DNA from: Eubacterium sp.
Lineage (GTDB): Bacteria > Bacillota > Clostridia > Lachnospirales > Lachnospiraceae
NCBI GenBank assembly: GCA_024681515.1
Contig: JAILAR010000143.1
Coordinates: forward strand, 1 to 49,098
Length of the DNA: 49,098 nt
Direction of reading: 5' to 3'
Part shown: positions 37,615 through 45,566 of the stretch, one piece after another
How the letters are laid out: each line of letters opens with the position of its first letter
Position numbering within the stretch: position 1 is the first letter of the stretch
Notes under the pieces: model-generated
Databases searched by the model: none
Seen by the model: only the letters and a program-made list of their open reading frames with translations
Told to the model about the DNA's origin: nothing
Made by a program: the position numbers and the translations under genes

Positions 37615-39141
37615 TCATGACTTTTTGTTGCGCGGTCTGCCTGGATTCTCCGGCAGGCTCTGCCCAAATACTTCTCTGGCTTTCGAAACCTTTTGTTGTT
37701 TTTCCACACTCTTCCGGTAAGCTTCCAAGCCTTTTTTCGCGTCTTCCATCTTTTTCCGGTCTTTTTCGTCCATTGTTTGTACACCCCAACTGAAATAACT
37801 TCTGAAGGAATCAGGAATTTCAGACATGGTCTTCAGAATTTCAAGCAGGATTTCGGCCAGGATCTCCGGTTTTTCAGCCAGGATCTCCAATTCTTCACCC
37901 ATGATATCCAGAGTTTCAGCTATGAGTTTCAGGGTTTCAGCCTTGAACTCCGGGGTTTCAGCCATGAGCTCCGGGGTTTCAGCCATGAGCTCCGGGGTTT
38001 CAGTCATAAGCTTCAGGATTTCAGCCATGAGCTCCGTTTTTTCAGCCATGGTCTTCGTTTTTTCAGCCATGGTCTTCTGTTTTTCATCTATGCTCCAGGT
38101 ATTGAAGTTCGTGAATTCTTCGAAACGGCCTGGGTCAATGGCCTCCCTGTCCAGCGCATCCAACGCTTCTCCGACGGATGTGAATTCCTCAATATTATAG
38201 GAAATATCAAATTGCGATATCCCGTACTCCAAACGAAACCTCAAATCGAAAGAGGCAAGCTTGCAAATCCTGCAATAGCCTTCCGAAGAATCCTTATTAT
38301 CCAGACGGTCATTTCCGATCAGATAGACCCCCGATCCGGTATCCGGATAGATCCGAAGGGGCACAAACAAGGCAGCTGCTTCCTTTTTCCATCGCACGGT
38401 TTCAAACAGACGCTCGCAGTCTTCCCGGGAAGGACCACCGATCGATTGTCCCACGCTGCCGGATTCCTCTGTCTTCCCAATCATCGCTCCCTTTTGTTGC
38501 GCCTTGCATAACTGAAACTCCGACAGCAGCCGAACATCATCCACATATCCCTGTCCTGCGGATTGCTTCCCATCCTCATACAACCGCAGCTTTCTACGGA
38601 GTGGGTTCAGGAAATCGGAAACCATGTCTCCAAGCAGTTTCTCTTCCCAATGTTCCTGAAACGCAAGGCGTGCCTCCTCCGTACAGTCAGACGGCATGGA
38701 ACCGGTCAGTTCCCGGAGTTTTTGGAAATACTCCTCTTTGGAAAGTTTTCCCTCTTCATACCTCAGGATAAGCGCTCGAAGGCGTACGTATTCTGTAGCT
38801 CGTTCCTGTCCGGAGTCTTCACCGTCACCCTTTTCAGCCAGCAGCCTTGCCCTTTCTTCTCCGATCTTTTTTTCAAATTGCCAGGCAAAGCTGTGTACAT
38901 TTCGCACACCGTGTCCGGGAAAAGCGTTTTTTTTCAGTTCTTTCAGCTTCTCCTGATATTCTTTAATCTGATCCTGTATGTTTTTATAATTCAGCTTCCC
39001 TCGAGACTGCTCCAGCCGCCTTTTTCCGTTCTCCAGTTTCTGTTCCAGTTCGGCCTTCATACGCAGCGCATCATCCGTCGGAGGAGGCGCGTAATCCGCA
39101 AGGATCTCTCGGTAGAGATCCATTTGATTTCCGATATTCAT
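37615..39141 (-). CDS. Unassigned protein with a 7-residue repeat tract
   Basis: A 508-residue soluble protein that I do not recognise. Residues about 15-110 form a charged helical region, probably coiled coil (AELEQKLENGKRRLEQSRGKL). A mixed region follows to about 345, with a four-Cys-free core and GVYLIGNDRLDN. Residues about 352-441 consist of heptads such as MAETPEL and MAEKTKT repeated about a dozen times, and the C-terminus is Lys-rich. The ATG overlaps the stop of the previous gene (ATGA), with AGGAGG upstream, so the two are translated together. It is the last gene of the ClpP-TraG cassette. A structural or partner-binding role is a guess. Confidence 0.7.
   Translation of the reverse strand: MNIGNQMDLYREILADYAPPPTDDALRMKAELEQKLENGKRRLEQSRGKLNYKNIQDQIKEYQEKLKELKKNAFPGHGVRNVHSFAWQFEKKIGEERARLLAEKGDGEDSGQERATEYVRLRALILRYEEGKLSKEEYFQKLRELTGSMPSDCTEEARLAFQEHWEEKLLGDMVSDFLNPLRRKLRLYEDGKQSAGQGYVDDVRLLSEFQLCKAQQKGAMIGKTEESGSVGQSIGGPSREDCERLFETVRWKKEAAALFVPLRIYPDTGSGVYLIGNDRLDNKDSSEGYCRICKLASFDLRFRLEYGISQFDISYNIEEFTSVGEALDALDREAIDPGRFEEFTNFNTWSIDEKQKTMAEKTKTMAEKTELMAEILKLMTETPELMAETPELMAETPEFKAETLKLIAETLDIMGEELEILAEKPEILAEILLEILKTMSEIPDSFRSYFSWGVQTMDEKDRKKMEDAKKGLEAYRKSVEKQQKVSKAREVFGQSLPENPGRPRNKKS
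37890..38090. repeat. 21-base coding repeats (heptad-encoding)
   Basis: The unit GGGGTTTCAGCCATGAGCTCC recurs with variations in tandem, in frame, giving heptads like MAETPEL. Several units are identical, so recent expansion is likely and copy number may vary between strains without breaking the frame. Confidence 0.85.
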
Positions 39142-40328
39142 GACAGCCTCCTAGCACGCATCAACTCTTTTTTGAGATGTGTCGTCGCATTTTGCAGTCT
39201 GGCCGAAACAAGGCCATAGGAATCTCCAAGCGCATACGGTGATTCTCCGGTATTAAAAAGCCAGGCATCCAGGAGCATTTCGACTTCCTTTGCCGCATTT
39301 TTCACATGCTGTAGAAGCTCCGGTTTCACCATCAGTTCACGGAATTCGAGATAGAGAGCGCAAAAACCCTCTGCATCCGGAAGCGTACCGAGCCAGCTTT
39401 GATAAAACCTTTCCGCTTCTTCGTTCTCTTCACGGATCCTTTCCGCCGTTTCCCTTTCCATCTGATCATACTCTTCCTGTGTCATCGGAGGGATCGGATC
39501 CGTGTCTTCCTCCTCCGGCATCGCAAGCTGATCGAGATATTCCTCATACGCCTGCTCTTCCTCCGTCATGACATGTACCTTCATAGGGACATCCATCCCA
39601 CCGATCTTTACCATGACCTCTTTCATTTCAAGGGCCGAAGAATCCGAAGCCTTTGTCTCTGCTGACGCTTCCGATCCGGAATTCACGGTCTCCGTCGATT
39701 CTTCTCCCTCGGCCTCTTCTTTCTCCGGAGAAGCCTCCCAGAGACCCCACGTATTATTCGGATCCCATTCCTCCGGGCTTAATGTATACGTCTCAGTGAT
39801 CGCCTTTTTCGAGATCCAGCTGAAAACATAGTTGAGAAAATCCGTCCAGGTCGGATTTTCATTATAGTAGTATTCGGCGTAATACGCCTCGGCATGGTAC
39901 ATTTCCGCCTTATCTTTGAAAAACTCGAGGTTCTTTACGTTCTTCAAAATGTCGGAATACTTCTCCGATTTATTTACAATGATATTCGTGCAATAGGAAT
40001 AGGAGTCCTGGAACGACTCTGCTCCGGGCCCGAGGATCGCAAGATAGAGGATATGATGAAAAAGCTTTCTTGCCTCTCCCTCAACCGGCTGCAGATTTTC
40101 ACCGTGCATGGAACTCCAGGTCTTCTGATATTCGTTATAGTTGTCGATCATGGCGTCGATCAGCGTTTCAACCTTCTCGGGGTCGCGTTTTCCTTCCTCG
40201 TCCGTGATCCGCGGAAGAAAGCTTTCCTCTCTCCCGCTCACGGCTTCTCGGATCTTATCCAACTCCGTTTCCAGCTGGTTTCTACGATAATTCAATGTAT
40301 AAAAGTCGGTTCTTTTGTCTGTTTTCAT
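39138..40328 (-). CDS. Unassigned acidic helical protein in the ClpP-TraG cassette
   Basis: A 396-residue protein of unknown family. The N-terminal part (about 1-190) is helical, with Tyr/Phe-rich segments such as AEAYYAEYYYNENPTWTDFL. A low-complexity Glu/Ser/Thr stretch follows at about 205-240. The C-terminal half has YDQMERETAERIREENEEAE, probably coiled coil, and ends Arg-rich. I start at ATG 40328 (MKTDKRTDFY) after AAAGGAGCG; the open frame upstream to 40442 runs through a hairpin. The stop codon overlaps the next gene's ATG. No transmembrane segment or catalytic motif is visible. Confidence 0.7.
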   Translation of the reverse strand: MKTDKRTDFYTLNYRRNQLETELDKIREAVSGREESFLPRITDEEGKRDPEKVETLIDAMIDNYNEYQKTWSSMHGENLQPVEGEARKLFHHILYLAILGPGAESFQDSYSYCTNIIVNKSEKYSDILKNVKNLEFFKDKAEMYHAEAYYAEYYYNENPTWTDFLNYVFSWISKKAITETYTLSPEEWDPNNTWGLWEASPEKEEAEGEESTETVNSGSEASAETKASDSSALEMKEVMVKIGGMDVPMKVHVMTEEEQAYEEYLDQLAMPEEEDTDPIPPMTQEEYDQMERETAERIREENEEAERFYQSWLGTLPDAEGFCALYLEFRELMVKPELLQHVKNAAKEVEMLLDAWLFNTGESPYALGDSYGLVSARLQNATTHLKKELMRARRLS

Positions 40329-40367
40329 TTTTATTAAACGCTCCTTTCGCGTATGGTTTTCATGTCG

Positions 40368-40408
40368 TGATGCCGGGAGAGCAAAAAGCATGTTGCCCTC
40401 CGGCATCA
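40368..40408. repeat. GCCGG hairpin in the cassette, copy 1
   Basis: TGATGCCGG (40368-40376) pairs with CCGGCATCA (40400-40408), with AGAGCAAAAAGCATGTTGCCCT between. A very similar hairpin lies at 41403-41437 in the next intergenic space upstream. No T tract follows. Confidence 0.7.
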
Positions 40409-40463
40409 ATGTCAGTGTAACAAAATTCCCATATTTCTGCAATTGCTCTCGGATGACCGCACG

Positions 40464-41366
40464 TTACTTCCCCTGCCGCATCCGGACCATGCTCGGCCCC
40501 ATGAACATCAGGAACCAGACCCAGTAAGCGGCCAGCAGTCCTTCTTCGTCCTCCGGCGGCCAGTAGGTACCCTGGATATTCTTCCGCTGGAAGGGACGCT
40601 CCGGAGCTTCCTCCCACATGGCACAGCTTTCCATTTCGGAATAGCCTACGTTCTCCTTCACATCCGATAGGCAGACCAGAGCCTGCGTTGCCTGGGAGAG
40701 CACTTCCCCGACAGTCACGGTCGTCCCCCATTCCGTCTCCCAAAGGTCCACATCCCTTGCAAAGAAATGTTCATAGAGTGCATTCATGCGCGGTTCAAAT
40801 CCGGCCAGATATTCCATATAATCACGGACAGACAGTCGGAGGAACGGGATCACACATTTTCTGTGGAGTTCATCCAGCTCCGCCTCCATGCGTTCCAACC
40901 GCTTTTTCCTGTCACATTCTTCCTGAGACTGCGGGTTGGCCGAGGCGCCTTCCTCCTTTGCAGCCTGAGCCTCCGGCTGCTCCTCCGCAGACTCCTCTGA
41001 CGCTGCAGCCTGCTCCTGCTGTGCCTTCACGTCGGAAGGTCTCCGCTCCTCATATCTTCTGCCGGATGCCGGATCCAAATATCCCATGGCCCCAAGGAAG
41101 ATAAGCAGATCCGTGCTGATTCCCTCCGTCTCCGGGTGCACCGGCATGGTTCCCAGCAGAAAATGAACATAATCCATCATGTAGTTTTTCCTCACACAGT
41201 GCTTCAGCAGATCCGGAAGAAATTCCTTCCGCATTTTCCCATAAAACACCGCACCCACAGGTACTTTCGTAAACTCCAGCACTGTCCTCTCCACGCCCGC
41301 CAGGCTCAGAGCACGGCCGGTCTTCACTACTTTCAGAACGTCGTCCAAAGATCTTCTTTTTTCCAA
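40464..41366 (-). CDS. Unassigned protein with acidic linker in the ClpP-TraG cassette
   Basis: A 300-residue protein I cannot assign. Residues about 1-105 form a compact helical domain (LLKHCVRKNYMMDYVHFLLG). A Glu/Gln/Ala/Ser linker lies at about 115-148. A second helical domain with several Trp residues (ECDRKKRLERMEAELDEL to WEEAPERPF) fills the rest, ending in a hydrophobic stretch AAYWVWFLMFMGPSM that might be a membrane-associated helix. The start is TTG 41366 with CGGAGG eight bases upstream. It lies between the ATPase gene and the 396-residue protein gene. Intergenic hairpins flank it on both sides. Confidence 0.7.
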   Translation of the reverse strand: MEKRRSLDDVLKVVKTGRALSLAGVERTVLEFTKVPVGAVFYGKMRKEFLPDLLKHCVRKNYMMDYVHFLLGTMPVHPETEGISTDLLIFLGAMGYLDPASGRRYEERRPSDVKAQQEQAAASEESAEEQPEAQAAKEEGASANPQSQEECDRKKRLERMEAELDELHRKCVIPFLRLSVRDYMEYLAGFEPRMNALYEHFFARDVDLWETEWGTTVTVGEVLSQATQALVCLSDVKENVGYSEMESCAMWEEAPERPFQRKNIQGTYWPPEDEEGLLAAYWVWFLMFMGPSMVRMRQGK

Positions 41367-41402
41367 TGTCGTATCCTCCGTTTAATATGTTGATAGGGTC
41401 AA

Positions 41403-41437
41403 CGCCGGGGAAGGCAAAATCCCCTTTGTCCCCGGCA
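41403..41437. repeat. GCCGG hairpin in the cassette, copy 2
   Basis: GCCGGGGA (41403-41410) and CCCCGGC (41430-41436) form the stem, with a second GGGG/CCCC option inside (GGCAAAATCCCC). It resembles the hairpin at 40368-40408 in position and sequence, in front of the next gene of the cassette. Confidence 0.65.
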
Positions 41438-41481
41438 TTCGAATCGTCTCCGGTGTCGATCAACCACCCCACTAAAGAAGC

Positions 41482-42801
41482 CTACATTTCCTCAAGTTCC
41501 TTCCGTGTCATGGAGTAGGGTTCCAGTTTCTCCACCAGCGCCGCCCGCTGTCCCCTGACAAACATCCAGGCCGCATCCAGATCCAGCGACAGGATCTTCT
41601 CCGGCAGCCGTCCGGCCTTCTCCGCAAAAAACCTCGCCGTACTGACATCCTGTCCACCCAGATACAGCATGGTATCGCAGTTGTTTATGATCGTAGACGC
41701 CTGCCCCTCGTTGTACATCCCCTTCAGTTGGGACAGGGACTGCAGGATGATGCTGGTACTGATCTCTCGGCTGCGGATCACCGACACGAGCTTGTCGAAA
41801 TCGGGAATGAATACATTTGCCGCGAAGTCATCCAGGATGATGTGTACCGGCATGGGAAGCCGGAAGTCCGGCCTGCCGTCCGCATACCGACACAGGGACT
41901 GGAACAGCTGGGTGTAGAAAATGTTTACGACTGCATCCATGGAGCGGTCGGTGTCACTGATATTTACAAACAACGCGATCTTCTCCCTGCCGGGCCGGGT
42001 CAGATCAAACCCTTTGCAGCACAGCATCTTTGCGTTTTCGTTGAAGTCAAATACGCTGAGGGCATTGGATACAAACTGCTCGATGGAACTCCAGCATTTA
42101 TCTGCCGCGAAATTGCCTGCGTACATATGATACATTTTCACCGCCAGACTGTCCGGGTTCTCCTGCTCCAGTGCGGCAAAGAAGGAAACGCCCGGCCAAT
42201 CCCGACGGTAACGGTTGGCGGCAACTTCCGCGGAAAGGGTACGGTACAGCTTTGCCACCGAACCGAAATGCTGCTCACCCCGGGGAAGGACCTCCAGCAC
42301 AAATGCCATCAAACTGGTGAGGACGATCCGAGCCGAGATCACCCAAAACTCATCCTTCTTGGAGAGCGAGTCCGGGAGCATGGCATTTGCGATCCGTGTC
42401 AGATCCGTCTCCCGATAGGCTGCGCCGCGCCGCAGGCGCTGGACCGCATCCAGCGGATTGTAGGGCGTGGAGTGCTCCGGATGCACAAAATCAATGCAGA
42501 GCGTCCGGAATCCCCGCTCCCGGAGTTCCTTCCTCATAGTCTTGTAAAGCTGACCCTTGGTATCGGCTACTACGATGCTGTTCTCCGTGCACTGCAGATT
42601 CGGGACAACGAAGCTGCCTGTCTTCCCGCAGCCGGAGGTTCCCACCACCAGTACATTGTTGTTCAGGCCGGTCTTCCGGGTGTCGGTGGAACGCGCCTGA
42701 TTTCTGGCAAAGATCATGCGGGAAGCGACCGGCACAGTCTTTGCGGTATTTACGGTTTCGTTGGTTTTCTGATCATTGGTTTTAAGGTTTTCTGTTTTCA
42801 A
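41482..42801 (-). CDS. Soluble TraG/VirD4-family ATPase (coupling-protein type)
   Basis: A hexameric RecA-like ATPase of the TraG/TraD/VirD4 family, 439 residues. Walker A is GTSGCGKT (Lys60). Walker B is HIILDDFA (about 318-326), with DD instead of the usual DE. The PDFDKLVSVIRSREIS and NNCDTMLYLGGQD blocks are typical of Firmicute VirD4-like proteins. There is no N-terminal transmembrane anchor, unlike classical VirD4. The start is TTG 42801 with GGAGG six bases upstream; earlier ATGs lie inside a hairpin repeat. No relaxase or other type IV secretion gene is visible in the window. It lies directly after clpP. It may be a mobile-element remnant or serve a non-conjugative role with the cassette. 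Confidence 0.88.
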   Translation of the reverse strand: MKTENLKTNDQKTNETVNTAKTVPVASRMIFARNQARSTDTRKTGLNNNVLVVGTSGCGKTGSFVVPNLQCTENSIVVADTKGQLYKTMRKELRERGFRTLCIDFVHPEHSTPYNPLDAVQRLRRGAAYRETDLTRIANAMLPDSLSKKDEFWVISARIVLTSLMAFVLEVLPRGEQHFGSVAKLYRTLSAEVAANRYRRDWPGVSFFAALEQENPDSLAVKMYHMYAGNFAADKCWSSIEQFVSNALSVFDFNENAKMLCCKGFDLTRPGREKIALFVNISDTDRSMDAVVNIFYTQLFQSLCRYADGRPDFRLPMPVHIILDDFAANVFIPDFDKLVSVIRSREISTSIILQSLSQLKGMYNEGQASTIINNCDTMLYLGGQDVSTARFFAEKAGRLPEKILSLDLDAAWMFVRGQRAALVEKLEPYSMTRKELEEM

Positions 42802-42823
42802 GTTGCACCTCCATTTCATACAT

Positions 42824-42895
42824 TGAGCCATGCCGACATCGACGATTGCTTCGCAAGTCGCACCTGCCGGCTTGGTCGATTCGGCGCATGGCTCA
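42824..42895. repeat. Hairpin repeat with TGAGCCATGC/GCATGGCTCA ends, copy 2
   Basis: Identical 10-base inverted ends to the element at 2511-2600, with a GATTGCTTCGCAAGTC centre. It lies between the clpP stop and the ATPase start, again right after a stop codon. Confidence 0.75.
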
Positions 42896-42904
42896 TTACT
42901 AACG

Positions 42905-43483
42905 CTACCACTCCCGGATGATCTCCGTAGCAAGTCCAAGCTCCACTGCCTTCTCTGCCGTGAGGAAGCAATCCTCCGCCGTCATTTCATACACTTTTTC
43001 CAGTGGCAGGCCGCTTTTTTCGGAAATGACCTTCCCTAATACATCCCGGGTCTCCATCAACTGATCCGCCTGCTTTCGAAGCTGCAATGCCATCTGTGGC
43101 TGTGCCAGCCCGGCGAGCAGAGGGTCGTGGATCATAAGCTTCGTGTGCGGGAGCATCTCCCTGCGAGTTCCTGCAAGGAAGAGGATCGCTCCCATGCTGG
43201 CCGCGGTGCCGATGCATATCGTCCGTACCGGACTCTTCAGCATCTGGATTGTGTCGTAAACCGCCAGTCCGCTGACCACTTCACCGCCCGGAGAGTTGAT
43301 GCAGAGCGTGATCTCCTGTCCCGGCTCATCCTTATCAAGGAAAAGAAGATACTCGATCAATGCGTCCGCGGAGGAGGGATTCACCTCCTCCGTAAAGAAC
43401 AGGATCCGTTCCTGCAGCAACATGCTTTCAGGACTGTAACTGTCAATGCCTCTAGAACTCTCTTTTAAGATCATTCCTTTCAT
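42905..43483 (-). CDS. ClpP-family serine protease
   Basis: A ClpP-type peptidase of 192 residues, the full family length. Catalytic triad by alignment of motifs: Ser96 (TAASMGA), His119 (KLMIHDP) and Asp171 (AEDCFLTAEKA). The CINSPGGEVVSG block forms the oxyanion region. ATG 43483 follows AAAGGAGC at about 10 bases. ClpP needs a AAA+ unfoldase; none is encoded here, and the next gene encodes a TraG-type ATPase instead. Divergent accessory ClpP genes occur on mobile elements in Firmicutes. A housekeeping clpP probably lies elsewhere. Downstream genes include three unassigned proteins that could be substrates or partners. Confidence 0.92.
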   Translation of the reverse strand: MKGMILKESSRGIDSYSPESMLLQERILFFTEEVNPSSADALIEYLLFLDKDEPGQEITLCINSPGGEVVSGLAVYDTIQMLKSPVRTICIGTAASMGAILFLAGTRREMLPHTKLMIHDPLLAGLAQPQMALQLRKQADQLMETRDVLGKVISEKSGLPLEKVYEMTAEDCFLTAEKAVELGLATEIIREW

Positions 43484-43579: not shown

Positions 43580-43830
43580 CCCGTGAAGTTCACGGGGCGG
43601 TCATTTCCGTCGGTGTGGCATCCCTGTGAGTACAGTATATTCGCGCCCACCATCTGTCCGTGAAGTTCACGGGCCGGTTATTATCCATCGGTGTGACGTC
43701 CTTGTGAGTACAGTATAGCTCGGCCCACAATTTGCCCGTGAATTTCACGCGGATAATCATTTCCAACCGGTGTGGCATCCCTGTGAGTACAGTATATCCC
43801 GGCCCACGATTTGCCCGTGATCTTCACGGC
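43580..43830 (-). repeat. Tandem repeats of 77-79 bases with palindrome and -10-like sequence
   Basis: Four palindromes of the form CGTGAA-N-TTCACG (43581-43595, 43658-43672, 43736-43749, 43815-43829; the last imperfect) are spaced 77, 78 and 79 bases. On the minus strand three are followed 19 bases later by TATACTGTACTCACA (TATACT at 43634-43639, 43712-43717 and 43791-43796). The units read toward clpP. Translated on the minus strand, they give repeats such as ARIYCTHRDATP, which I take to be a by-product, not a gene. It may be a tandem promoter-operator array. Nothing else is visible between 43484 and 43884. Confidence 0.85.
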
Positions 43831-44028: not shown

Positions 44029-44688
44029 TTATCTTCCGAATACGATCTCCCGAAAGGCATCTCTGCTTTCCAGGGCCTTCTCCAGCATTCCGCTCCTGCG
44101 CAGCCCGACATAGATGGCGGCTGCCTCCGCCTGGCAGTTGATCTGTTTTGCGGGGTTGAACTCAATATCCGTAAATGCCGTGTACTCCATCACATGATCT
44201 GCCAGTGCCGTATTCTGATGAAGGGTATTCACGTAAAGCCAGTCATAGAAGAACGTCCGCGGCTCCGTGGGGAAGTCATAGGAAAAGCACCGGAAACCGA
44301 TAACATTTCCGCTCTCGCGAATCCTCGGGTCTCGCTTTGCCTCGATCGACGGACATCCATAGAGATCCGTGTAGGGTCCGCCATGCTCAAACACCTTGGA
44401 TCCCTGAAAAACGGATTCCACCGAACTTTTCTGCCCGGAGTTCAGCGTCATTTGCAGATTGAAGGCGCTCATAGCCACCCCCAACGGATTTTCGGACTTG
44501 CTGGAAATCTCCAGGATCCGCCCTGTCTTTCCTTCCTGCCGAAACAGCTCTTCATAATTCTGATGAAGACTTCGGATACACCGCTGCTTCTGCTGAATGG
44601 AAAAGCCGCCGAAAAACTGAAATTCCACATCTCTTCTATTCACATACGGTGCAGTATCCTGCGCCTCAAAAACAGGTCGTTTGGCCAT
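44029..44688 (-). CDS. NADAR-family antitoxin (DarT1-associated)
   Basis: I assign this 219-residue protein to the DarT1-associated NADAR family, from its pairing with darT and motifs such as VEFQFFGGFSIQQKQRCI, RILEISSKSENPLGVAMSAFNL, SVFQGSKVFEHGGPYTDLY and FPTEPRTFFYDWLY. In this family the protein removes ADP-ribose from DNA guanine, reversing the toxin. ATG 44688 follows AAGGAGGA. It lies 88 bases downstream of darT on the same strand, with a strong hairpin between them. Recognition is from memory of the family, so the match should be confirmed with a domain search. Confidence 0.8.
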   Translation of the reverse strand: MAKRPVFEAQDTAPYVNRRDVEFQFFGGFSIQQKQRCIRSLHQNYEELFRQEGKTGRILEISSKSENPLGVAMSAFNLQMTLNSGQKSSVESVFQGSKVFEHGGPYTDLYGCPSIEAKRDPRIRESGNVIGFRCFSYDFPTEPRTFFYDWLYVNTLHQNTALADHVMEYTAFTDIEFNPAKQINCQAEAAAIYVGLRRSGMLEKALESRDAFREIVFGR

Positions 44689-44727
44689 AGTATGAGTCCT
44701 CCTTGCTTACATTTCATATTCGCCTGC

Positions 44728-44760
44728 CTTTGTGACCGCCTGATGCAGGCGGTCACAAAG
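44728..44760. repeat. Perfect 15-base-pair hairpin between darT and the antitoxin gene
   Basis: CTTTGTGACCGCCTG (44728-44742) and CAGGCGGTCACAAAG (44746-44760) form a perfect stem with a three-base loop. It resembles the first hairpin of the array at 18743-18773 (TTTGCAACCGCC arm). It could change the toxin to antitoxin ratio, or be a dispersed repeat that settled there. Confidence 0.85.
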
Positions 44761-44776
44761 CCTTGTTTCACACGTA

Positions 44777-45397
44777 TTAGAAACAAACTCCGCTGTATAC
44801 ATACCCACGGGTTGAGAAAAGGTAACTCTTTTCACAATCACAGGAAACCCCCTCCGGCGCGTACTTGCTGAACGCTCTCCGATCTTTGTCCCACTGGAAA
44901 TGGATCGCCCGAATTGCCGACACCGGGATTGCCTCAAAGACCAGGATTTCGGCCTGCTCATCCCTGGGGAAGCAGGCATTGGGTCCGGAAAACATCGCTC
45001 GGAAACAGTCAATGCCTTTCCGGTTTCTTCCATTCATATAGGAGCATGCGGCATTTGTCGGACAAAAGCCACAGTCCCTTGTCAGCACCTGCTCCGGAAT
45101 CAGCTCGATGACCGCGTAGTGGTTTAATGTGTTTCGAAGCAGGCGGTACAACATCTTCCCGTTGGTATGACTGATGGTCGTGCAGACCGCATCCTGACAA
45201 CCATCCAGCCTCTGACTGTCATTCGCCTGATAATTCATATGTCCATCATTCAGCTTCGTTCTCGGGAGCAACCCCCTCGTCAGAATGGATGGCAGGTTCC
45301 TGATATCCGTGAAATGATACATGTTCTGGATCCGCCTGTTCCGGATCTCCTGTTCCATAGCTGCTCTGTACTCATCCATCTTCGTAATTGTCTGCAT
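44777..45397 (-). CDS. DarT1-type DNA ADP-ribosyltransferase toxin
   Basis: A toxin of 206 residues that ADP-ribosylates bases in DNA using NAD. The NAD-binding start MYHFTDIRNLPSILTRGLLP (about 26-45) and the catalytic Glu150 in EQAEILVF are typical of DarT (formerly DUF4433). TRDCGFCPTNAACSY contains a Cys cluster. ATG 45397 follows AAGGAGG. It is the first gene of a two-gene operon with the NADAR antitoxin downstream. Toxin-first order is the same as in darTG systems. Such pairs act in phage defence or growth control; which applies here is not known. A promoter-like element lies 30-70 bases upstream. Confidence 0.87.
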   Translation of the reverse strand: MQTITKMDEYRAAMEQEIRNRRIQNMYHFTDIRNLPSILTRGLLPRTKLNDGHMNYQANDSQRLDGCQDAVCTTISHTNGKMLYRLLRNTLNHYAVIELIPEQVLTRDCGFCPTNAACSYMNGRNRKGIDCFRAMFSGPNACFPRDEQAEILVFEAIPVSAIRAIHFQWDKDRRAFSKYAPEGVSCDCEKSYLFSTRGYVYSGVCF

Positions 45398-45427: not shown

Positions 45428-45466
45428 AGTATATAGCTATGCTTTTTGTCGCCCGTGAATTTCACG
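45428..45466 (-). promoter_or_regulatory. Palindrome plus -10-like element upstream of darT
   Basis: CGTGAATTTCACG (45454-45466) is followed on the minus strand 20 bases later by TATACT (45428-45433), about 30 bases before the darT start codon. The layout matches the tandem units at 43580-43830. TTCACG may act as a weak -35. Confidence 0.65.
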
Positions 45467-45566
45467 AGCCTCTTTTTTCTGATGCCAGATTCCGATCAGA
45501 CTTCTGCCTATAGTATACGTATTACCCCCAAAAAACTCAACACATTGATCAAGCATAAATTAGGAA

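Follow-up and report, generated by a model that had tools for sequence, protein, structure and literature searches.

The window analyzed here is an entire contig (JAILAR010000143.1; 49,098 nt) of the 197-contig assembly GCA_024681515.1 of Eubacterium sp. (Lachnospiraceae). From position 43483 down to 37615 of its minus strand, it carries five genes in the order clpP, ATPase, X, Y, and Z, in which the ATPase is a soluble relative of the VirD4/TraG coupling proteins of conjugation. The clpP–ATPase pair, usually with X, is firmly conserved outside conjugation: it is linked across divergent genomes, its enzymes form two separate lineages with intact distinctive motifs, and its loci are not part of a conjugation system within the sequence examined. 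We tentatively interpret this module, with a probability of about 0.45, as an accessory, chromosome-borne receptor-protease machine of gut Clostridia, whose core would consist of X, ClpP, and the soluble coupling ATPase, and in which Y, Z, and a ClpX-like AAA+ protein would be additions in some lineages. ClpP is taken to work with AAA+ partners, and in the literature, the titles and starts of abstracts listed (at most 20 per search) contain no description of a ClpP–VirD4 pair. The module thus has the appearance of a protein-destroying machine that is as yet undescribed, rather than of a broken mobile element.

The pairing was followed in 92 loci, comprising 14 stretches from 99 related genomes and 78 loci from GTDB genome contigs (at least 508 relatives, of which the best 80 were kept), all obtained with the ATPase as query. 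In 80 of the 92 loci, the small ATPase gene has a same-strand ClpP gene no more than 400 bp away (77 of 89 without the duplicates L050, L078, and L127); near-copies remain in the set (e.g., L062/L063, L065/L066, and L105/L113). In these 80 loci ClpP is upstream in 76 and downstream in 4, with a median gap of 18 bp and 27 overlaps. In one of the 80 (L071), ClpP is only a fragment at the contig end. Among the other twelve loci, ClpP lies at most 0.8 kb away with X-type genes in between (L065, L066, and L101) or is found 9.7 kb from the ATPase (L097), three stop at a contig edge (L042, L098, and L115), and five show no ClpP (see below). A later family-wide search added nine new ATPases in seven genomes, all nine with an adjacent ClpP (eight of them not duplicates) and five with an X gene at a distance of up to about 1.5 kb. 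Of these ATPases, L175 has the same sequence as L095, and the other eight share 48–63% identity with the closest member of the set. Conversely, a profile of ClpP, itself built from module-type ClpPs, identified eight module-type ClpPs (>240 bits) over 61 genomes, each of them beside an ATPase. Moreover, ClpP and ATPase distances are correlated (r = 0.67, with 0 of 2000 permutations as high; 76 of 80 pairs after removal of near-copies), which could also come from shared descent alone. ClpP and the module ATPase likely act together. Two module-type ATPases per locus or genome were seen in L055 and in genomes G039, G059, G380, and G618, and a divergent ClpP and VirD4-like ATPase pair with a 4 bp overlap (L171:1238-3351) was seen in a genome from a different family within the same taxonomic order.

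The window ATPase is a recognizable coupling-protein relative. It scores 299.5 bits against the NCBIfam model conju_CD1115, above the curated cut-off of 250, and contains a VirD4 motor core with a TraG-D_C domain, a Walker A motif (GTSGCGKT), and a Walker B motif (ILDDFA). It shares these features with type IV coupling proteins; in contrast to them, the module ATPase has neither an N-terminal anchor nor a C-terminal tail. The median number of residues before Walker A is 48 in module ATPases and 149 in VirD4, i.e., about 100 fewer than in the VirD4 of integrative and conjugative elements (ICEs), and the last conserved Gly is followed by 24 residues versus 78, whereas the distance between Walker A and Walker B is retained (258 versus 265). 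A hydropathy window, a crude measure that misses 9 of 26 VirD4 rows, gives a signal in 3 of 90 module rows, in each case outside the N-terminus, versus 17 of the 26 VirD4 rows. In the ATPase tree, one branch (SH-aLRT 100) separates 89 module rows from 26 rows of ICE-type VirD4, although the tree was built by a quick method without bootstrap and some of the VirD4 rows are identical. Walker B reads DD in 89/89 module ATPases and DE in 26/26 VirD4 rows, the Walker A Lys is kept in 89/89, and a D-x-K motif carries Thr in 80/89 module ATPases where VirD4 has Pro (26/26); in total, eight columns are diagnostic.

Among known coupling proteins, TraJ of plasmid pIP501 also has no transmembrane domain and is reported to be paired with the membrane protein TraI (PMC7431656, PMC12857230). 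As such coupling proteins are known from conjugation systems, the missing anchor alone is not new. However, TraJ is presented there as working in a complete conjugation system, and no type IV secretion system genes were found near the module. In PADLOC 2.0, the window ATPase resembles the MADS protein Mad8 by a weak match (mad8; E = 8.7e-07).

The window ClpP matches the Pfam ClpP family (E = 8.8e-50), and the Ser-His-Asp triad is kept in 79 of 80 module rows, the window included. A complete ClpP directly beside an anchorless VirD4-family ATPase had been described from the window alone in the original prediction, which proved right and understated. The 80 module ClpPs are split from 25 canonical ones by one branch of the ClpP tree (support 100/99; 100% of 200 bootstrap trees). 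The residue after the active His is Asp in 78/80 module ClpPs versus Gln in 25/25 canonical ones, and Arg170, present in 25/25 canonical ClpPs, is replaced by Glu in the window and does not rank among the six residues most often found at this site in the module rows. The hydrophobic cleft for the IGF loops of AAA+ partners, whose positions we take to be those of Escherichia coli ClpP, appears from the alignment to be altered. At position 112, Phe or Tyr in 22/25 canonical ClpPs is replaced by Glu in 41/80 module ClpPs, including that of the window, and at position 82 (Phe or Tyr in 22/25) by Met, Leu, Gly, or Ala in 67/80 (Met in the window). Other cleft residues are partly kept: Leu114 in 65/80 and Tyr62 in 46/80 (Cys in the window). 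The source genome also encodes two canonical ClpPs, one of which shares a contig with a ClpX-type gene.

Compared with ClpXP, the module thus has a protease of the same family with the same triad and, in some lineages, a ClpX-like AAA+ with an IGF-type tripeptide. However, its ClpP forms its own lineage with His-Asp for His-Gln, no conserved Arg170, and an altered cleft, and its regular neighbor is an ATPase of the VirD4/FtsK-HerA class instead of an AAA+ protein. There is no AAA+ gene beside clpP in the window; one is encoded in trans in the source genome, and in four loci one is encoded in cis beside ClpP.

Pfam and NCBIfam give names for ClpP and the ATPase and chance-level matches only for X, Y, and Z, which had been reported as unassigned and stay so. 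Iterated hidden Markov model searches for X from several seeds converge on one family. X-type genes lie at most four genes from the ATPase in 63 of 90 module sources, the window included, and members of the Y and Z families are found in 28 and 21 of the 90, so that all three genes recur beside the pair. X occurs either as one protein or as two neighboring ones, the first aligning to the N-terminal half of the fused form and the second mostly to its C-terminal half, with some weak scores. Its AlphaFold2 model is all-helical (pLDDT 83, pTM 0.82) and has no fold match in PDB or BFVD at E <= 0.001; X thus represents a new protein family that, judged from this model, is helical. For Y, the model (pLDDT 77, pTM 0.69) has no PDB fold match at E <= 10. 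No PHROG match of X, Y, or Z is better than E = 0.017 (Z, a tail tape-measure family), and in PADLOC 2.0 the five module proteins gave weak matches only, namely that of the ATPase to mad8 and that of Z to PDC-S06 (E = 0.018).

The surroundings were scanned with the proteins of a named ICE (L137), in 90 module sources and 8 ICE loci; for most module sources the sequence extends to about 10 kb per side at most, and often less. VirB4 was found in 0/90 module sources versus 7/8 ICE loci, and a relaxase in 1/90 (L073, about 8.6 kb from the ATPase) versus 4/8. PrgI (0/90 versus 5/8), PcfB (0/90 versus 4/8), and MobC (0/90 versus 1/8) follow the same direction, and the CHAP protein of the ICE was found in neither set (0/90 and 0/8). 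Hence, homologs of the pair are not confined to conjugative elements, and the module differs from type IV coupling proteins in having no VirB4 and almost no relaxase nearby. Comparison of the source genome with the related genome G019 gave ratios of nonsynonymous to synonymous divergence (dN/dS) of 0.16 for ClpP, 0.09 for the ATPase, 0.23 for X, 0.14 for Y, and 0.21 for Z. In this one genome pair the module genes are under purifying selection, which argues against decay. The synonymous divergence (dS) of the module genes is 0.06–0.54, and two flanking genes have higher values (0.65 and 1.09); for this pair, the difference suggests that exchange of the module postdates the divergence of its flank.

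We propose that the ATPase shares ancestry with CD1115-type coupling proteins and lost the membrane anchor and the C-terminal tail. It would still be a hexameric ring that recognizes nucleoprotein substrates, as coupling proteins do, and would pass the protein part of the substrate into the ClpP chamber, in most loci probably by threading it. The contact between ATPase and ClpP would be other than the canonical one between hydrophobic cleft and IGF loop, and X is a likely adaptor that would link the two rings to each other or the ring to its substrate. In genomes with a ClpX-like AAA+, which the source genome encodes in trans, that protein may carry out the unfolding or contribute to it. The module would most likely function in conflict with mobile DNA, i.e., a phage or a conjugative element. 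More generally, a ClpP lineage with a ring motor of the DNA-translocase class as its regular genomic neighbor, together with a new helical family, means either that a non-AAA+ motor drives the ClpP chamber or that a single pathway combines DNA recognition with proteolysis. The module also shows that coupling-protein ATPases in gut bacteria are used outside conjugation.

Several points weigh against this interpretation. The loci were found via the ATPase, whose constancy is hence partly by construction, and five loci (L094, L099, L100, L104, and L119) contain the ATPase and flanking sequence in which no ClpP was found. The contact between ClpP and ATPase, the activity, and the substrate are predictions from sequence, and the role in conflict is suggested by patchy distribution and neighbors only. 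Two flanking genes have dN/dS of 0.04–0.05 between the source genome and G019, lower than the module genes, such that selection on the module is weaker than on its flank. A ClpP-docking tripeptide (I/L/V/M-G-F/L/Y) is not conserved in the ATPases: it occurs anywhere in 37/89 and at one column in at most 10, in agreement with its reported absence from the window ATPase; the ClpP cleft is altered too. Furthermore, ClpX-like AAA+ genes, which may encode the true unfoldase, lie in six ATPase loci (L045, L046, L048, L069, L094, and L097), and the source genome has one in trans, on contig C194, with FGF at the docking site. Finally, genome G037 carries an AAA+ and a ClpP-like gene in one row (L232:6829-9146) without a VirD4-like ATPase. 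Of the original prediction, the pairing of ClpP with a VirD4-type ATPase is upheld as real, conserved, and outside conjugation; that the ATPase is the motor of ClpP is a more conditional proposal, given the AAA+ genes in six loci and in trans.

These ClpX-like genes are the main evidence for the first alternative, in which ClpP is fed only by Clp AAA+ proteins (host ClpX/ClpC or the lineage-specific ClpX-like protein) and the ATPase acts separately on DNA, as a pump or sensor in the same pathway. We consider this possible, albeit rather doubtful. The six in-locus AAA+ proteins are about 28–30% identical to E. coli ClpX and carry IGF, MGF, or LGF at the very position of the docking loop of ClpX (6/6), and further copies have I/L/FGF there (4/4). 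ClpP is adjacent to the ATPase in four of these six loci, 9.7 kb off in L097, and was not found in L094. On contig C194, Y and Z genes stand behind the AAA+, with no ClpP or ATPase in the stretch read, and in G019 an AAA+ gene and a Y gene are arranged in this order as well. Across the 99 relatives, the AAA+ is present in 5/13 module genomes versus 2/86 others (Fisher p = 3e-4), or in 2/10 versus 2/86 (p = 0.053) without the three cis genomes from which the profile was built. G041 has it with neither a ClpP-like gene nor the ATPase. However, a profile search detected it in 0/7 further module genomes across the family; this search had no positive control, and the same profile found 7/99 relatives at a stricter threshold. 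An AAA+ in trans was therefore not upheld as a general rule, and its presence in some loci and genomes points to a dedicated ClpX-like partner as an option of some lineages only. The docking cleft is also altered in module ClpPs beside an AAA+, and with two canonical ClpPs in the genome, the host AAA+ proteins would have no need of another one. In view of the close linkage and the altered canonical cleft, we consider it somewhat more likely that the ATPase acts on ClpP, either directly or via X, than that ClpP is fed by AAA+ proteins only.

Observed around these genes were, in Butyrivibrio NC2002, a double-AAA (ClpA/B-like) gene that immediately follows the ATPase gene (L126:11202-13046), a gene for an AAA and M41 peptidase protein near the L069 module (L069:15661-19341), and, near some AAA+ or ClpP genes, a giant protein of 1098–1264 aa with an invariant KLGGADFDSDTA (L045:2350-5727, L048:10741-14238, L101:4531-8325, and L232:9284-12580). 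Three scanned copies of the latter match phrog_8308 (E = 1e-59 to 4e-78), and one weakly matches a phage RNA-dependent RNA polymerase family (E = 0.0012); we take it to be possibly a YonO-like polymerase.

A more specific form of our interpretation is an anti-conjugation protease, in which a captured coupling protein, freed from the membrane and wired to ClpP, would catch the relaxosome or another nucleoprotein of incoming elements in the recipient and feed its protein to ClpP, the FtsK/HerA-class ATPase being the unfoldase. If true, it would be the first ClpP machine with a non-AAA+ motor; we regard it as unlikely. Mutual exclusion of the module and conjugative VirD4 was not seen, and the source genome has both.

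It is quite unlikely that the module instead serves the cell in regulatory or stress proteolysis and takes no part in conflict with mobile DNA. In favor of such a role, stress responses are commonly controlled by ClpP systems, and in the source genome the module lies in ordinary chromosomal surroundings. However, its distribution is patchy and its neighborhoods vary, with flanking genes that differ between loci. A module-type ATPase was found in at least 13/99 relatives (counted by short frame and high identity, with partial or divergent matches such as G020, G032, G055, and G070 left out), in at least 8/299 genomes from across the family (with five candidates per genome scored), and in at least 1/245 over the class, the source genome itself (seven candidates scored per genome). 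Within four genes of the module, 230 proteins of at least 180 aa other than X, Y, Z, ClpP, and ATPase were collected, and the scan covered the 80 on the same strand. Among the 25 of 100 families listed, the last of which have one member each, none with two or more members is a relaxase or integrase family. Four neighbors match RecQ-type helicase models of defense systems, one of them full-length and PsyrT-like (L061), and one matches mad3; the scan had no control set, and neither these defense genes nor the DarT/NADAR genes next to the module in the window are evidence of enrichment. In an empty-site comparison, G019 shares the downstream flank, and in eight other relatives the TtcA gene stands in other surroundings or the contig is too short. 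The TtcA-like gene beside the module in G019 (L036:6331-6978) is without an internal stretch.

A phage-satellite or capsid unit, in which ClpP would be the prohead protease and the ATPase would drive packaging, is very improbable. ClpP does match phage head maturation proteases (phrog_94, E = 1.6e-41), and one IMG/VR contig carries the ClpP–ATPase pair. However, ClpP scores better against bacterial ClpP models, X, Y, and Z have the poor PHROG matches given above, and no capsid, portal, terminase, or tail name appears among 25 of the 53 PHROG families of the 80 neighbors, most of which are unnamed. Among 72,556 plasmid records and 50,697 phage records, all matches were below 60% identity, and the 15 listed for each set were 28–37% identical (phage, 28–36%). 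The plasmid match H3 is ICE-type and lies in a full ICE, the phage match H16 is a 597-aa VirD4 of ICE size, H9 had no module profile match, and X had no match in the plasmid records. Distant ClpX-like AAA+ proteins, mostly with an IGF-type tripeptide, were also observed in IMG/VR phage contigs, many of them >100 kb (L236-L268). These resemble the AAA+ of the module lineages and have a ClpP-like gene nearby in 5/33 loci, which counts for a capsid unit; in contrast to the module, a VirD4-like ATPase, X, Y, and Z were detected in 0/33.

The least credible alternative, a remnant of a conjugative or mobilizable element that kept two common genes, as had been suggested for a decayed mobile element in the window, is compatible with the CD1115 score and with VirD4 matches in 61/99 relatives, but it was rejected since it is contradicted by the separate lineages with their intact motifs (DD Walker B in 89/89), the dN/dS of 0.09–0.23, the ClpP linkage in 80/92 loci, and the absence of VirB4 and near absence of relaxases within about 10 kb.

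The coordinates of the module and of features close to it are collected in Table 1.

Table 1. Module genes, spacers, and upstream repeat in the window.
Feature	Position	Strand	Remarks
clpP, module-type, 192 aa	42905..43483	-	triad Ser96-His119-Asp171; own lineage in tree
clpP-ATPase spacer with long stem-loop	42802..42904	-	fold -37.9 kcal/mol, z -3.05
Soluble VirD4/CD1115-derived ATPase, 439 aa	41482..42801	-	likely start TTG 42801; open reading frame open to 42939
ATPase-X spacer, weaker fold	41367..41481	-	-37.9 kcal/mol, z -2.00; 7/200 shuffles equally good
X, all-helical protein (predicted), 300 aa	40464..41366	-	fusion of X1 and X2, separate genes elsewhere
X-Y spacer with stem-loop	40329..40463	-	-39.3 kcal/mol, z -2.68; 2/200 shuffles equally good
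Y, accessory protein, 396 aa	39138..40328	-	likely start ATG 40328; family in 28/90 sources
Z, 508 aa	37615..39141	-	family in 21/90 sources; alignment with 17 relatives
Tandem repeat, 3.2 copies of 77-79 nt, with palindrome CCGTGAASTTCACGG, upstream of clpP	43580..43829	not assigned	

The repeat array upstream of clpP is a possible operator or promoter array. A whole-genome search found no further exact copy of its palindrome, CCGTGAASTTCACGG; a copy with one mismatch lies at 45453-45467 of the window, just upstream of a DarT-like gene. This gene, which encodes an ADP-ribosyltransferase, and a NADAR-DarT1 antitoxin gene occupy positions 44029-45397 and adjoin the module. The C-terminal part of Z contains short repeats (AETPELM and similar) that are absent from the 17 aligned relatives.

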